Source: Caldicellulosiruptor obsidiansis OB47
GTDB taxonomy: Bacteria > Bacillota > Thermoanaerobacteria > Caldicellulosiruptorales > Caldicellulosiruptoraceae
Length of the DNA stretch: 64,000 nt
Assembly: GCF_000145215.1 (NCBI RefSeq)
Contig: NC_014392.1
Location: forward strand, 1,806,001-1,870,000
Reading direction: 5' to 3'
In this document: one piece after another, positions 2,310-30,395 of the stretch
Layout of the letters: every line of letters begins with the position of its first letter
Numbering within the stretch: the first letter of the stretch is position 1
Position numbers and translations under genes: made by a program
Notes under the pieces: model-generated
What the model was told of the DNA's origin: nothing
Database searches by the model: none
What the model saw: the letters and a program-made list of their open reading frames with translations, nothing else

Positions 2310-4259
2310 TTATCTTACAATAATATTTCTTCTTCTTACACTATATAAAGTATCATTTTGAATTGCATTTGTTTGGTTATATATTGTTGCCGGTGGAACA
2401 TACCCAGTAGTATTTGTTACCTGATTCTGAATGAGTGAACTCGGCGAACCATATATTAATGTTACACCATCAAATGGACTCCCGCCTGAACTATTTATAT
2501 TAAGAGTATTACCTAACGCAATCAATTGACCATTTAATATTCTCGTTCCCACTGAAATAGTAATGTTGTTCCTTGCAAAAACATGCAATTGGAGTGGACT
2601 TGGAACTGGCGAAACGCCCATGCTTGCTAACCTGTTTTGAATCTCAACTTCAATTTCACCTGCATTACAATTTTCTCCAATAACAACAACTTGCGGAGGT
2701 GATTTAGAAATATCTGCAGCACTGTCAATTGAGGCTGGTGGAACTGGATCATGGGGTGTTATCGATGGTATACTTGTACTATTAGGAAAACTAAAATTTC
2801 TTATCTCATTTAAAATTTGTGGCAAGGGCGGATACGGAACTGAAGACACTACATTTATAACCCCACCTGAATTAACAATCCGACTATAGTCAGGCGGCAT
2901 CCTCGTCACAATGGTTGCGCCATTTTCTATTACTAACGTAGTTGGATTGTTCAAAAACTGAATCGAATCGCAATATACTACCGCACCAGATTTTATTGTA
3001 ACTGTCCCTTGATCCTGTATTCTTAACGCACCCCTGATTACTCCTATTTTCTTTATTACAACATCTACCGCATTTGCTGTACTACCTTTAACTATGACAT
3101 TCCCATCGCAGTATAACTCATCAAACTCATATCTCCCTCTACCATATAATTCCGCATTTCCCCCCACGTACGTTATACCCATCTGCAAGCTAATATTTCT
3201 ATCTCCAACACCCGTTCTTCTCAAATTTGACCTAATATAAGTTACATTGTTCACTTTTACATTGTCTTCGCGAACTTGTGGATTACCGTTCACACCCAGT
3301 GATAACTCACCCATTACCACCAAATTATTAATGTCAGTTTGCAAACCGCCGTGTGATTGTATGTCACCGCCTGTATGTATATTCCCGCCTATTATGGTAA
3401 AGTTAACATTTGCCACGAAGCTTCCATTTGTGTATAATGCATAATCAAACAAGTTAAATACTGAGGATGCAGCAGTAGTAGTTGCACTCGATACGCTACT
3501 TTCCAGCCCATTAGGCTTGGTTGCAAGTATTTCAACATCTAACCGCAATGTTCTCTTTATCTCTTTATCTGACGAAGTTCCTGCTCTCTTTTTAGATACA
3601 TCAATGTAAATTGTATATCCATCAGGAAGAGACCCACTTGTCGTACCTGACCATGCATTAACTGTAATATCATCAAGTTCATACCCAGTCAGGCTCTCAT
3701 AATGTGGCTTTATATACAACTCTACTAAGTCAGATAACTTCTTAAACTCCGGCAGCGACAGAGATTCAACCTTTATGGAAGCATCACTACCCACGTCATT
3801 CATAAACCGGCTTACCTCATCCCTTATAATCGCTTTCATACCCTCATACACTTTATCTTCAGCTACATCTCGACTTATCCTCCCATGTCGCAAATCATCC
3901 AATATCTTCCCCGGCTCATAGCTCTCATCTCCCAATAACCATCTCACTCGACCAGGACATATATCTTTTAGTGTCCCATCTCCCTTGTAATAATAACCAT
4001 ACGCTATATTCTTTGCATCCTCTAACAGTTGATTAAAATAATACAAAAACTCCTCTGCTGCACTTTCAGCTCCATAGCCTGTTGCAGATTTCTGATATAT
4101 AGATGTGCTCTGGTTCAGCGATGCTAACACAGCCGACATCGCTCCCAGTAAGACTGTGCTTAAAATAGCAATTATTATTATCACAATAATTAAAGCACTT
4201 CCACTCAAATTTATTTTGAATACTTTTTTACTAAAGGTCTTCCAATTTGTTCTCAACAT
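2310..4259 (-). CDS. Tapirin 2, cellulose-binding surface protein
   Basis: About 649 residues. A short basic N-terminus is followed by one membrane helix (about residues 20-45, GSALIIVIIIIAIL), a globular region to about residue 260, and a C-terminal half rich in short beta turns, Asn, Gly and Val as in the beta-helix of tapirins. Tapirins are Caldicellulosiruptor cell-surface proteins that bind crystalline cellulose and lie just downstream of the pilus operon, which fits the context. I chose the ATG at 4259 (AAGGAAG 8 bases upstream) over the GTG at 4268 that abuts the ribosome site. The gene has its own promoter, c-di-GMP riboswitch and terminator. Codons for about 194 residues are nearly identical to tapirin 1, while the C-terminal half differs. 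Confidence 0.88.
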   Translation of the reverse strand: MLRTNWKTFSKKVFKINLSGSALIIVIIIIAILSTVLLGAMSAVLASLNQSTSIYQKSATGYGAESAAEEFLYYFNQLLEDAKNIAYGYYYKGDGTLKDICPGRVRWLLGDESYEPGKILDDLRHGRISRDVAEDKVYEGMKAIIRDEVSRFMNDVGSDASIKVESLSLPEFKKLSDLVELYIKPHYESLTGYELDDITVNAWSGTTSGSLPDGYTIYIDVSKKRAGTSSDKEIKRTLRLDVEILATKPNGLESSVSSATTTAASSVFNLFDYALYTNGSFVANVNFTIIGGNIHTGGDIQSHGGLQTDINNLVVMGELSLGVNGNPQVREDNVKVNNVTYIRSNLRRTGVGDRNISLQMGITYVGGNAELYGRGRYEFDELYCDGNVIVKGSTANAVDVVIKKIGVIRGALRIQDQGTVTIKSGAVVYCDSIQFLNNPTTLVIENGATIVTRMPPDYSRIVNSGGVINVVSSVPYPPLPQILNEIRNFSFPNSTSIPSITPHDPVPPASIDSAADISKSPPQVVVIGENCNAGEIEVEIQNRLASMGVSPVPSPLQLHVFARNNITISVGTRILNGQLIALGNTLNINSSGGSPFDGVTLIYGSPSSLIQNQVTNTTGYVPPATIYNQTNAIQNDTLYSVRRRNIIVR

Positions 4260-4394
4260 TTCACACACTTCCTTAAACTCTTAACTATAGTTAAATACAA
4301 CGCTAACAATAATTTTCCCTCTTAACTCTCTCCGTACTTCCCACTTGTTCATTAATTCTTTGCTACTAAAACAACAATGGATATAAAAATAAAA

Positions 4395-4416
4395 GCATCT
4401 GGCTGTCGCCAGATGC
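4395..4416 (-). terminator. Intrinsic terminator of the tapirin 2 riboswitch
   Basis: A perfect 9-bp stem GCATCTGGC/GCCAGATGC with a 4-base loop is followed on the minus strand by TTTTATTTTTATA. On that strand the 5' arm is preceded by TGG, so TGGCAT there could instead pair with ATGCCA at the 3' end of aptamer stem P1, a plausible antiterminator. That would make ligand binding favour termination, but this is inference. Confidence 0.85.
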
Positions 4417-4451
4417 CATTTGCCAATGATTAAATATATCACTCATCTCTT

Positions 4452-4554
4452 GGCATATTTTCGGCAGCCTGGCAACCATAGGAAGTTTTACTTCCGACAA
4501 GCCCATGGCTTTGCGCCCCTGCCTTTCGACAGGTTTGCCCTTTCGATATATGCC
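4452..4554 (-). promoter_or_regulatory. Cyclic-di-GMP-I (GEMM) riboswitch of tapirin 2
   Basis: Minus strand: P1 stem GGCATAT (4554-4548) pairs with ATATGCC (4458-4452). Inside are GGGCAAACC, GGGCGCAAAGCCATGGGC, the GGAAG/CTTCC hairpin and GGTTGCCAGGCTGCC, the conserved class I c-di-GMP aptamer. A promoter lies just upstream and a terminator just downstream, then the tapirin 2 ribosome site. The cellulose adhesin should therefore respond to c-di-GMP at the level of transcription. Confidence 0.95.
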
Positions 4555-4587
4555 TTTACTCTTTTGACAATCACAATCCTCTGTATA

Positions 4588-4635
4588 TTATTATCTCACA
4601 AAACTTAGAGTTTTTCAAGCACATTTTTCAGCTCC
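4588..4635 (-). repeat. Target duplication of the IS1634-type element, left copy, part 1
   Basis: The first 48 bases match 8281-8328 exactly. This copy is split at 4636 by the IS4-type element and resumes at 6211. It contains the working promoter of tapirin 2. The last seven bases (4629-4635, CAGCTCC) are repeated at 6211-6217 as the IS4-type target duplication. Confidence 0.9.
4590..4618 (-). promoter_or_regulatory. tapirin 2 promoter
   Basis: Minus strand: TTGAAA at 4618-4613, a 17-base spacer, GATAAT at 4595-4590. The predicted start is about 25 nt before the aptamer. The IS4-type element begins only 18 bp upstream of the -35 box, so any upstream control site has been displaced. An identical copy is at 8283-8311. 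Confidence 0.85.
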
Positions 4636-8454: not shown

Positions 8455-10383
8455 CTACTTTATGACAATGTTTCGTCTTAAAATGTTATATAAAGTTTTT
8501 CTTCCAACTGCATCAGCCTCCGTATATATTATTTGAGATGGTTGAATACCTGTATTATTCTCAATGTCTTGTTGTATGGAAGGACTTGGCGTTTGATACT
8601 TTAGCGTAAGCCCAGCATATGGATTCTCCAAGCAGTTTACATCTAATGCATTACCAAGCGAGATTATCGAACCATTTAAAATAGTCATACCACCACCCAC
8701 GAATGTAATGTTGCCCCGTGAAATTAAATGCAGCTGGAGTGTTGAGAAATCAACAGTGGGTAAACTTAATCTACCCAATATTTCTAACCTTGCTTCATTA
8801 TCGTTAATAAAGGATTCACCATATATTACTATCTGCGGGGGTGTTTGAGTTATGTCTGCAGTGCTGCCAAGCTGAGGACTACCAACACTATCAGCTGGCA
8901 ATGGTGTTATTAGCAAACCACTGGTATAATCCCGATTTCTTATTTCATCTATCTCAGCTGGCGTAGGTGGATATGAAAAAGAAGAAGAATACGAAATTGT
9001 CCCACCATTATTTTGTATGGATATTATCGTGGATGCATCGGGAGTTGTTGCTACATATAATTTTGCTCCATTTTCAAGAATCAAGCGGGAACCATTGCGT
9101 ACTACCAATGAATTGCAGTAAACCGCACTGTTGCTTTTTAACGTTACTGTTGCTCCATCAATAACCTCAAGTGTCCCTCTTATACTTGCTAACGCTGAAA
9201 CTTCCATGTTCACACCCGGTCCAGCTAGCTTTACATTGCTATCAGAAAACAATTGTACAAACTTATAGCTACCGGCCCCATATAATTGCATTTCCTGACC
9301 AACATAAATTGTTTTTGCATCAATATTAGTTGAGCGTGGGGATATCCTATTTGCTTTCAAACTTTTTTCTACATAAATTATATTCCTTACAACTATATTG
9401 TTGTCACGACATCGCGAGTCACTATCTTGATTTATCATCATCTCACCTTTTGATATCAAATTGTCAATATTAAACACCGCACCACCGTGTATCGTTAGGT
9501 CACCACCTGAATACACACTTCCATTTTCGACAGTAAGGTTTTTGTTAGTATTAAGAGCACCCTTTGAAAATATTGCATAATCAAGCGGTGATGAAGGAAC
9601 AGGCGTTGGTGATGGATTCAAAATTAAGTTCACTGAACTTCCACTGTCATCAGCTATTCTAACATCTAATCGCAATGCTCTCTTTACCTCTTTATCTGAC
9701 GAAGTTCCTGCTCTCTTTTTAGATACATCAATGTAAATTGTATATCCATCAGGAAGAGACCCACTTGTCGTACCTGACCATGCATTAACTGTGATATCAT
9801 CAAGTTCATACCCAGTCAGGCTCTCATAATGTGGCTTTATATACAACTCTACTAAGTCAGATAACTTCTTAAACTCCGGCAGCGACAGAGATTCAACCTT
9901 TATGGAAGCATCACTACCCACGTCATTCATAAACCGGCTTACCTCATCCCTTATAATCGCTTTCATACCCTCATACACTTTGTCTTCAGCTACATCTCGA
10001 CTTATCCTCCCATGTCGCAAATCATCCAATATCTTCCCCGGCTCATAGCTCTCATCTCCCAATAACCATCTCACTCGACCAGGACATATATCTTTTAGTG
10101 TCCCATCTCCCTTGTAATAATAACCATACGCTATATTCTTTGCATCCTCTAACAGTTGATTAAAATAATACAAAAACTCCTCTGCTGCACTTTCAGCTCC
10201 ATAGCCTGTTGCAGATTTCTGATATATAGATGTGCTCTGGTTCAGCGATGCTAACACAGCCGACATCGTCCCCAGCAATATTGTGCTCAGAACAGCAATA
10301 ACTATTATCACAACAATCAAAACAGATCCGTCAACCTTTTTAATAAACATCCTGTCTTTTAAACAACTAATTTTTTCCAGCAT
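8455..10383 (-). CDS. Tapirin 1, cellulose-binding surface protein
   Basis: 642 residues with the tapirin layout: short basic N-terminus, a membrane helix at about residues 19-42 (GSVLIVVIIVIAVL), an alpha-rich region, and a C-terminal half of repetitive short strands suggesting a beta-helix. It binds cellulose by family knowledge. It starts 7 bases after the stop of the last minor pilin and looks like the final gene of the pilus operon, whereas tapirin 2 has its own riboswitch. A 581-bp segment (9688-10268) differs from tapirin 2 (3561-4141) at only two bases, while the rest of the two genes diverges strongly. No clear terminator follows. Confidence 0.88.
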   Translation of the reverse strand: MLEKISCLKDRMFIKKVDGSVLIVVIIVIAVLSTILLGTMSAVLASLNQSTSIYQKSATGYGAESAAEEFLYYFNQLLEDAKNIAYGYYYKGDGTLKDICPGRVRWLLGDESYEPGKILDDLRHGRISRDVAEDKVYEGMKAIIRDEVSRFMNDVGSDASIKVESLSLPEFKKLSDLVELYIKPHYESLTGYELDDITVNAWSGTTSGSLPDGYTIYIDVSKKRAGTSSDKEVKRALRLDVRIADDSGSSVNLILNPSPTPVPSSPLDYAIFSKGALNTNKNLTVENGSVYSGGDLTIHGGAVFNIDNLISKGEMMINQDSDSRCRDNNIVVRNIIYVEKSLKANRISPRSTNIDAKTIYVGQEMQLYGAGSYKFVQLFSDSNVKLAGPGVNMEVSALASIRGTLEVIDGATVTLKSNSAVYCNSLVVRNGSRLILENGAKLYVATTPDASTIISIQNNGGTISYSSSFSYPPTPAEIDEIRNRDYTSGLLITPLPADSVGSPQLGSTADITQTPPQIVIYGESFINDNEARLEILGRLSLPTVDFSTLQLHLISRGNITFVGGGMTILNGSIISLGNALDVNCLENPYAGLTLKYQTPSPSIQQDIENNTGIQPSQIIYTEADAVGRKTLYNILRRNIVIK

Positions 10384-19098: not shown

Positions 19099-20811
19099 CT
19101 ATTCAAGTGCATAAGTAATCTTCAGATATTCTTCAACTGATGTAATTCCATTCAAAACTCTCTCTTTGCAAGCTTGTCGCAGTGTCTTCATCCCCTGTTT
19201 GACAGCAAGTTCCTTTATCTCCTCACTGCTGACATCTTTTTTGTTTATAAGTTTTCTCAACTCTTTTGTCACAATCAGAATTTCATATACACCTGTTCTA
19301 CCATAGTAACCTTTTTTATCACATATATGACATCCTCTCTTTCTGTATAATTTTACATTCTCATCTTGCTTTATGTCAAGAAGAATTTTTTCTTCCTCTG
19401 ATGGCTCATAAGGCTCTTTACAGTGTGGACATAGTTTTCTTATCAATCTCTGTGATATTACTCCTACCAACGACGAGCTTATCAAAAAGTTTTCTATCCC
19501 CATGTCAACCAACCTTGTAATTGCACTTGCTGCATCATTTGTATGAATGGTTGACAACACTAAATGCCCTGTAATAGCAGCCCTGATTGCCATGTCAGCT
19601 GTCTCTCTGTCTCGGATCTCACCAATCATTATTATGTCTGGGTCCTGTCGCAAGATTGATCTCAGCGCCGCTGCAAATGTTAACCCTGCTTTGGTATTGA
19701 CCTCAACTTGATTAATACCTTCTATAGTACTTTCAACAGGATCCTCAACGGTTATTATGTTGCGCGTTCCAGTGTTAAGTTCGTTTAAAATAGTATAAAG
19801 CGTAGTAGACTTACCACTACCGGTAGGACCACAGACCAAGATTATCCCATGTGGCGCAGCAATCAGCTTGTTATATTTCTCTTCGTCTTCTTCAGTCAAG
19901 CCAAGCTCAGTTTTAGAACGCACAAATGCACTTTTGTCTATCACACGCACAACAATCTTTTCGCCATACACACAAGGCAAAGATGAGATTCTCATGTCAT
20001 AAATCTTATCCGAAAAAATGTAAGTTGTTCGTCCATCCTGTGGTATCCTCTTTTCTGCAATGTCCATATTACCTACAATCTTAATTCTGGCCACCAGTGA
20101 TGGCAATATCCCAATATCTAACTTCAAGACATTATACAATACACCATCAATTCTGTATCTAACTTTTATCTCGTTTTCAAACGGTTCAATGTGAATATCA
20201 CTCGCACGTGATGTAATAGCTTGTTCAAAAATGGAATTGACAAGTCTTACAATAGGTCCTTCTGTTCCATCTTCCAAACCAAGCTGGAATCGAGGCGTAA
20301 CAGTAGCTCTTTTGGCTTGGTTGTCCTTTTCGCTACTTTCTTTTTGCAACTCTTCAACTGCTTTTAAAGCTTCTTGCTTACCATAGAATCTTTCAATCGC
20401 ACGTTTAATATCGGATGCCTTGGCAATTCGTGGCCGCACTCTTCTGCCTGAATAAATCTCAATATCCTCCATTGCAAATATATTAAGCGGGTCCGCCATT
20501 GCCACAATCAGGCTTCCATCTTCAGCAAAACTTACCGGCAAAACGGTATGCCTTCGTGCAATCGACTCAGAAATCGTTTCAACTGCCTTAGGATCAATCG
20601 GATATACATCTAATTTTATGTGCGGTATCCCTAACTGAAACTCTAAAATCTCTATTAACTCATCTTCTGTTATATAACCTTTCTCAACCAGTATCTCTCC
20701 CAATTTTTTATTGGTCTGCTTTTGAATTTTAAGTGCTTCTTCTAGTTGCTGAGGTGTAATTATCTTTGCCTCTACTAAAACATCTCCAATTCTCTTTCTT
20801 TCTCTAGGCAA
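19099..20811 (-). CDS. pilB: PilB, pilus extension ATPase with MshEN-type N-terminus
   Basis: 570 residues. Residues 1-145 form a GspE_N/MshEN region with two tandem motifs, RIGDVLVEAKIITPQQLEEAL and KLGEILVEKGYITEDEL; MshEN domains bind c-di-GMP in several bacteria. The second motif is canonical; the first has Lys in place of the usual Gly. The ATPase core has Walker A at 328-336, GEIRDRETADMAIRAA, and a zinc site CPHC...CHIC (Cys461, 464, 494, 497) as in GspE/PilB. It drives pilus assembly and lies directly upstream of pilT. Confidence 0.94.
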   Translation of the reverse strand: MPRERKRIGDVLVEAKIITPQQLEEALKIQKQTNKKLGEILVEKGYITEDELIEILEFQLGIPHIKLDVYPIDPKAVETISESIARRHTVLPVSFAEDGSLIVAMADPLNIFAMEDIEIYSGRRVRPRIAKASDIKRAIERFYGKQEALKAVEELQKESSEKDNQAKRATVTPRFQLGLEDGTEGPIVRLVNSIFEQAITSRASDIHIEPFENEIKVRYRIDGVLYNVLKLDIGILPSLVARIKIVGNMDIAEKRIPQDGRTTYIFSDKIYDMRISSLPCVYGEKIVVRVIDKSAFVRSKTELGLTEEDEEKYNKLIAAPHGIILVCGPTGSGKSTTLYTILNELNTGTRNIITVEDPVESTIEGINQVEVNTKAGLTFAAALRSILRQDPDIIMIGEIRDRETADMAIRAAITGHLVLSTIHTNDAASAITRLVDMGIENFLISSSLVGVISQRLIRKLCPHCKEPYEPSEEEKILLDIKQDENVKLYRKRGCHICDKKGYYGRTGVYEILIVTKELRKLINKKDVSSEEIKELAVKQGMKTLRQACKERVLNGITSVEEYLKITYALE

Positions 20812-30211: not shown

Positions 30212-30229
30212 ACAAAAACTCCCTTCTTG

Positions 30230-30369
30230 AGGCTTACGGGATTAGCTGACGGGTTCGGGACAAGAAGGCTATCCCTACGGCAAGTTCTTTCTTGCCGATT
30301 CACCCCAATGGCTACTGTGGGTCTCCCGCTGTCTGAGCAATTTTTACAATTTGCTCAGACATTCAGCCT
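30230..30369 (-). promoter_or_regulatory. Cyclic-di-AMP (ydaO-yuaA) riboswitch
   Basis: Minus strand: P1 AGGCT (30369-30365) pairs with AGCCT (30234-30230). Inside are the conserved stretches AGCGGGAGACCCA, TTGGGGTGAATC, GTAGGGATAGCC and CCGAACCCGTCAGCTAA, which match the ydaO element. A variable hairpin sits near the 5' end. It lies directly before the NlpC/P60 gene, a typical target tied to osmotic and wall homeostasis. No separate terminator was found, so the control mechanism is not clear. Confidence 0.93.
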
Positions 30370-30395
30370 ATTAAGTTTATCATTTTGATGTTATT

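Follow-up and report, generated by a model that had tools for sequence, protein, structure and literature searches.

The tapirin 2 locus and its leader

The window analyzed in this work, i.e. the whole stretch of 64,000 nt from Caldicellulosiruptor obsidiansis OB47, carries two tapirin genes on its minus strand. Tapirin 1 (8455-10383) is the last gene of a type IV pilus cluster and has no riboswitch directly upstream. Tapirin 2 (649 aa, ATG at 4259, 4259-2310, minus strand) matches NF051896 with 896.9 bits (equivalog cut-off 600), as well as the structures 6n2b (E-value 1e-88) and 4wa0 (E-value 9e-64) in the PDB, and comparison with these entries identifies both proteins as clear members of the Caldicellulosiruptor tapirins. 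By homology to 6n2b and 4wa0, we infer that tapirin 2 binds crystalline cellulose. The two genes (8455-10383 and 2310-4268, both on the minus strand) have 670 bp in common at 97% DNA identity, whereas the full proteins are only ~58% identical, which suggests that gene conversion has recently affected the N-terminal region.

The initial annotation had claimed that tapirin 2 is preceded, in this order, by a promoter, a class I c-di-GMP aptamer with a perfect P1 helix, a terminator and a ribosome-binding site. All these elements were located, and they follow one another on the minus strand between 4618 and the end of the tapirin ORF at 2310. The promoter (4618-4590) is of the sigma-70 type, with a -35 box TTGAAA (4618-4613), a 17-nt spacer and a -10 box GATAAT (4595-4590) with a TG extension, and it can be aligned in six orthologous leaders. 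No other promoter-like site was found on the minus strand between 4200 and 4700, and in particular none between the terminator and the ATG. The aptamer (4548-4459, minus strand) is enclosed by the P1 helix GGCAUAU/AUAUGCC (4554-4548/4458-4452), which comprises seven perfect pairs. The intrinsic terminator (4417-4394, minus strand) has the form GGCAUCUGGC-GACA-GCCAGAUGCU, with 10 pairs followed by a U run; it is the one terminator found in this leader, compared to 0.2 expected in shuffled sequences. The ribosome-binding site AAGGAAG (4274-4268, minus strand) was assigned from the sequence. This arrangement of promoter, aptamer, terminator and tapirin is real and beyond chance, because it is kept upstream of tapirin 2 in all six genomes that possess an ortholog of this gene.

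Two further elements of the window are related to cyclic dinucleotides. The PilB ATPase of the type IV pilus cluster (19102-20811, minus strand) carries a predicted MshE-type c-di-GMP-binding domain (NF053729, 81 bits vs. a cut-off of 38), and therefore c-di-GMP may act twice at this locus and at different levels, namely on the pilus via PilB and on tapirin 2. Farther away, a c-di-AMP (ydaO) riboswitch (30216-30378, minus strand; 91 bits) lies just upstream of a gene for an SH3-NlpC/P60 cell-wall hydrolase (30211-29255), a usual partner of ydaO.

Classification of the aptamer

The covariance-model search against RF01051 (c-di-GMP-I), named in the initial annotation as a way to check the claim, gave 78.4 bits, well above the cut-off of 35. 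The aptamer also matches RF03167 (c-di-GMP-I-GGC) with 69.6 bits (cut-off 59, E-value 2e-14), which is the top match of the clan when ranked by E-value. If taken at face value, the latter label would place the aptamer in the GGC class, which may sense another cyclic dinucleotide. Yet, where the RF03167 consensus has GCGAA, the alignment reveals GCAAA, so that the G that marks the variant is absent, and, in bits, RF01051 scores higher. The A of GCAAA is the canonical residue, which presumably corresponds to A47 in Vc2 numbering. Moreover, one of the sister switches described below precedes an HD-GYP gene and another fronts a gene that neighbors a GAF-GGDEF gene. We therefore regard the assignment to the GGC class as very improbable, and its label as a sign of altered ligand specificity was dropped. 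The conserved motifs CUGCC, GGGCAAACC and GCAAAGCC, which we take to map to the Vc2 pocket residues G20, A47 and C92, are all present in the tapirin 2 aptamer, and GCAAAGCC, with the pocket A kept, is found in the window aptamer and in the listed relatives. The aptamer is situated in a 5' leader that also contains an expression platform, and promoter, antiterminator, terminator, ribosome-binding site and ORF are properly ordered. Because the variant-marking residue is the canonical one and the RF01051 bit score is the higher of the two, we treat this aptamer as an ordinary member of c-di-GMP-I, predicted to bind c-di-GMP. The "canonical class I" of the initial annotation thus stands with respect to the pocket residue and the score, while the best Rfam label is that of the variant. 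The aptamer itself has very likely been marked already by automatic annotation.

A genus-wide family of switches

Altogether, 30 such aptamers are present in all 12 Caldicellulosiruptor genomes, with one to four copies per genome. Six immediately precede tapirin 2, in the interval that separates the two tapirin genes (G000, G002, G004, G007, G009 and G011), and these are exactly the genomes with a tapirin 2 ortholog (6/6); no such switch was found directly upstream of the tapirin 1 genes. In G009 the ortholog (L056, 4543-6610) is interrupted by an internal transposon-like gene set (an insertion sequence) and broken again farther downstream, and the riboswitch is intact. Another seven are found ~0.6 kb ahead of the cellulase gene celA; eight genomes have a GH48 enzyme, and seven of these carry such an aptamer. 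The largest class (11/30) precedes a gene for a small, secreted protein of no recognized family (FNGSFTVTNEGGKFQVGFVEIDFKK; L051 1998-2471 in G000, and relatives), which is found behind its c-di-GMP-I switch in 11 of the 12 genomes and also in the sister genus. This protein has 139 aa in this genome, its gene is broken by a stop codon in G009, and in the genomes examined it is flanked by genes for a class III cyclase and a GAF-GGDEF protein. It is probably the oldest member of the c-di-GMP regulon. Among the remaining aptamers, one (L054) stands before an HD-GYP gene that is followed by cheA and cheW, one (L005, G006) follows a lone tapirin gene and has no gene behind, and four are degenerate or belong to a class that precedes a secreted protein of 327 aa (L052 3357-4340 in G000, L020 in G010), for which no Pfam match was found. 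In the leader of this last class a hairpin of 16 pairs is possible over the AAGGAGG sequence, and a shorter hairpin GGAACUCC-UUAUAU-GGAGUUCC would take up the 3' strand of P1. Judging from these pairings, the 327 aa class also looks like an OFF switch, which would act by hiding the ribosome-binding site rather than by termination.

The predicted antiterminator and its energetics

The terminator 5' arm of the tapirin 2 leader, GGCAUCUGGC (4417-4408), is complementary to the 3' strand of the aptamer itself, GCCAGGCUGCC (4463-4473, minus strand), with a duplex energy of -17.9 kcal/mol. The latter strand would form the 3' side of P3 when the ligand is bound and the 5' strand of the antiterminator when it is not, in which case the terminator arm doubles as the antiterminator 3' strand. 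Inside this pairing, the linker can form an additional helix (4421-4455, minus strand), in which UGCCAA (4455-4450), overlapping the P1 3' strand, pairs with UUGGCA (4426-4421); the linker fold has an energy of -9.6 kcal/mol and a z-score of -2.7. The ligand-free RNA can thus form, according to the folding calculations, a single long antiterminator hairpin, which is incompatible with the aptamer as well as with the terminator. Pairing between the terminator and P1 had been considered as the main antiterminator and was replaced by this stronger pairing with the P3 3' strand.

The same design recurs throughout the family. In all 26 attenuator-type leaders from the 12 Caldicellulosiruptor genomes, the terminator 5' arm conforms to GGC[A/G][C/U]CUGGC and its partner in the aptamer is GCCAGG[C/U]UGCC, with one bulge. 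For the 25 leaders for which the arm/aptamer duplex was computed (L005, which has the motif terminator, is the 26th), its energy ranges from -17.9 to -21.3 kcal/mol: -17.9 in the tapirin 2 class (6/6), -20.8 to -21.3 in the celA class (7/7), -19.9 to -20.4 in the class of the small secreted protein (11/11) and -20.4 in L013. For comparison, other terminators reach on average -7.6 (n=9) and -10.5 kcal/mol (n=17, the lowest value being -17.4). The terminator 5' arms vary between the classes (GGCAUCUGGC, CGGCGUCUGGC, GGCACCUGGC) and the partner arms of the terminators change to match, while the aptamer strand hardly varies; the outer helix is therefore a case of conserved complementarity with differing arms and not of two-sided covariation. 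A further helix, usually taking in the P1 3' strand, is predicted in 26/26 linkers despite their different class sequences; its z-score lies between -2.4 and -6.1 in 24 of them and is only -0.9 and -1.0 in L006 and L007. The inner helix of tapirin 2 appears elsewhere with altered sequence, as GCCAAG/CUUGGC in L015 and GCCGAG/CUUGGC in L017. In a sister-genus genome, the antiterminator is weaker in two of three leaders (-14.2 and -13.6, vs. -6.2 in the third), and a leader with such a weaker antiterminator precedes the same small secreted protein with the same neighbors.

In RNA that ends just short of the terminator 3' arm, the calculation prefers the antiterminator to the aptamer state, with a margin of 5.3 to 12.0 kcal/mol at 37 C that shrinks to about 0 to 3.7 kcal/mol at 75 C. 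Once the terminator is complete, the difference between both states at 75 C lies within about -2 to +5 kcal/mol (the full-length terminator values of L024 and L025 are not valid, as their exact 3' arm was missed owing to a G-U pair). Tertiary contacts, magnesium and kinetics do not enter into these energies, and the parameters for 75 C are extrapolated, so the values speak for plausibility only. They describe the leader as a poised switch, which ligand binding could tip toward termination.

Direction of control

We propose that the c-di-GMP-I riboswitch is a transcription attenuator that turns tapirin 2 OFF at high c-di-GMP, and we hold this to be likely. Binding of the ligand to the nascent RNA would close P1 and P3, leaving the terminator 5' arm free, so that the terminator would form and transcription would stop. 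In the ligand-free RNA, the P3 3' strand GCCAGGCUGCC would pair with the terminator 5' arm GGCAUCUGGC, together with the inner helix built by the P1 3' strand; this antiterminator would break both the aptamer and the terminator and RNA polymerase would read on into tapirin 2. The tapirin 2 switch would thereby be a member of a small genus-wide c-di-GMP regulon with a common logic. The order of elements and genes, their conservation and their complementarity are read from the sequence, and the ligand-dependent folding steps are what we infer. An OFF switch had been suggested initially, on the grounds of pairing between the terminator arm and the P1 3' strand; the direction is now well supported, by the P3 3' strand duplex of the tapirin 2 leader and by such an arm in every attenuator-type leader, while P1 accounts only for a part of the pairing, as its strand goes into the inner helix.

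The ligand should be present in the cell, since the genome encodes six GGDEF, three EAL and one PilZ domains and there are measurements of c-di-GMP for the genus (PMC4342205, PMC9933333). One study found its lowest c-di-GMP in C. kronotskyensis, a species with tapirins, when grown as a pure culture (PMC9933333; as both uM and nM are printed there for the levels, only the ranking is used here), which fits with a tapirin gene that is left on. Against the proposal stands the Bc1 riboswitch of Bacillus thuringiensis, which binds the ligand but left expression unchanged (PMC11218506). In Clostridioides difficile, the confirmed class I riboswitches are "off" switches (PMC6200980), a logic that the tapirin 2 leader is predicted to share.

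As a rule c-di-GMP promotes attachment, and class II switches precede pili and adhesins in C. difficile, which provides a model for an alternative in which c-di-GMP would lift termination and turn the adhesin on. Such an ON switch would agree with the common pattern, and high c-di-GMP accompanied biofilm in Caldicellulosiruptor (PMC4342205). However, the aptamer and the terminator have no bases in common and are mutually compatible, whereas the one strong alternative pairing abolishes both, and this same design is found in 26 leaders; the ranking of C. kronotskyensis mentioned above also argues against induction. We thus regard an ON switch as very unlikely. It is slightly less improbable, though still very unlikely, that the switch is vestigial or decoupled, with tapirin 2 mostly transcribed from elsewhere and the leader yielding a short abortive RNA. 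IS elements flank the tapirin 2 switch on both sides in this strain, and switches with no downstream gene are known from C. difficile, where they constitute 5/12 of class I (PMC6200980); in this genus, L005 of G006 is such a case. Against decoupling, the IS-derived sequence ends just upstream of the leader promoter, which is intact in this genome, the stretch from the terminator to the ATG has no other promoter-like site on the minus strand, and promoter, aptamer, inner helix and terminator are kept at the same place in six species. Hence we retain the ligand-dependent attenuator that turns tapirin 2 OFF as the preferred reading. Repression of an adhesin by c-di-GMP is opposite to the common rule, with one such case in C. 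difficile (PMC6200980).

A second switch upstream of celA

A second c-di-GMP-I aptamer (881-792, minus strand), which the initial annotation of the tapirin 2 leader leaves unmentioned, lies in the window about 0.6 kb upstream of celA, which encodes a GH9-CBM3-GH48 cellulase (start at 185-1, minus strand, continuing outside the window). It has its own promoter-like site (961-932, minus strand) and a leader terminator (757-728, minus strand), whose arm CGGCGUCUGGC (752-742) pairs with the aptamer 3' strand (806-795) at -21.3 kcal/mol. This aptamer is 97.7% identical to that of tapirin 2 over 88 nt, and tapirin and celA aptamers share on average 95% identity; their near-identity is pointing to an origin by duplication. 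celA probably also stands behind a c-di-GMP switch, which may control it. Against such control, celA has a separate conserved promoter just upstream (TTGGCA-17-TATAAT, 258-230, minus strand), and no 5' UTR longer than 329 nt is found among the mapped starts of C. bescii carbohydrate genes (PMC8579813), which speaks against an abundant RNA running from the riboswitch into celA in the growth conditions of that study. It is conceivable, although we would rather bet against it, that the paired attenuators allow c-di-GMP to repress directly and jointly tapirin 2 and celA, the GH9-GH48 head gene of the glucan degradation locus.

The region between the switch and celA (720-550, minus strand) contains ~40 nt (CTGTAACGCTGAAAAAGCTATCCCCTAACCCCCTCTTT) that are almost unchanged in seven genomes, and likewise a hairpin ATTGGCTGCC...GGCAGCCAAT; neither contains an ORF. 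The pattern GCTATCCCCTAACCCCCTCTTT of the conserved element upstream of celA occurs only once in the genome. GGCAGCC of the hairpin is complementary to GGCUGCC of the aptamer.

Relation to known systems and implications

The tapirin 2 switch resembles RF01051 (GEMM-I) in the sequence and structure of its aptamer, in the use of a terminator platform and in the ligand-OFF logic known from class I switches of C. difficile (PMC6200980). It differs in the target gene, and in the antiterminator, which, in a comparison of platforms in outline, draws here on the P3 3' strand and on an inner helix to which the P1 3' strand contributes. The closest functional parallel is Cdi-1-2, a class I switch that precedes a putative calcium-binding adhesin in C. 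difficile (PMC6200980): in both cases high c-di-GMP lowers the expression of an adhesin gene (a prediction for tapirin 2). However, the adhesins are unrelated, the ligand of the adhesin is cellulose here, and a nearly identical switch resides upstream of a cellulase. The initial annotation knew of no description of such switches for tapirins, and the open-access literature (the key tapirin papers lie outside it) likewise yielded no paper that links a riboswitch with a tapirin or with CelA. What is already known is the class I type of c-di-GMP switch; what appears new, within the literature covered, is the tapirin target.

Caldicellulosiruptor serves as a model for the breakdown of plant biomass at 70-80 C. 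According to a published study of its regulons, the glucan degradation locus has no dedicated transcription factor, and unknown ones are invoked (PMC8579813). The tapirin switch and its twin near celA offer a concrete, ligand-defined candidate for the regulation of this locus, which is open to test with the existing 5' RNA-Seq data (GSE163475) and one reporter experiment. If joint repression of tapirin 2 and celA were true, c-di-GMP would be a missing regulator of cellulose breakdown in the genus, and a low level of it would signal "grip and digest cellulose". If our proposal for tapirin 2 is right, cellulose attachment, and perhaps cellulase expression, would be linked to a second messenger that acts in the direction contrary to the usual rule, and the leader would provide a natural thermostable OFF switch for engineering.
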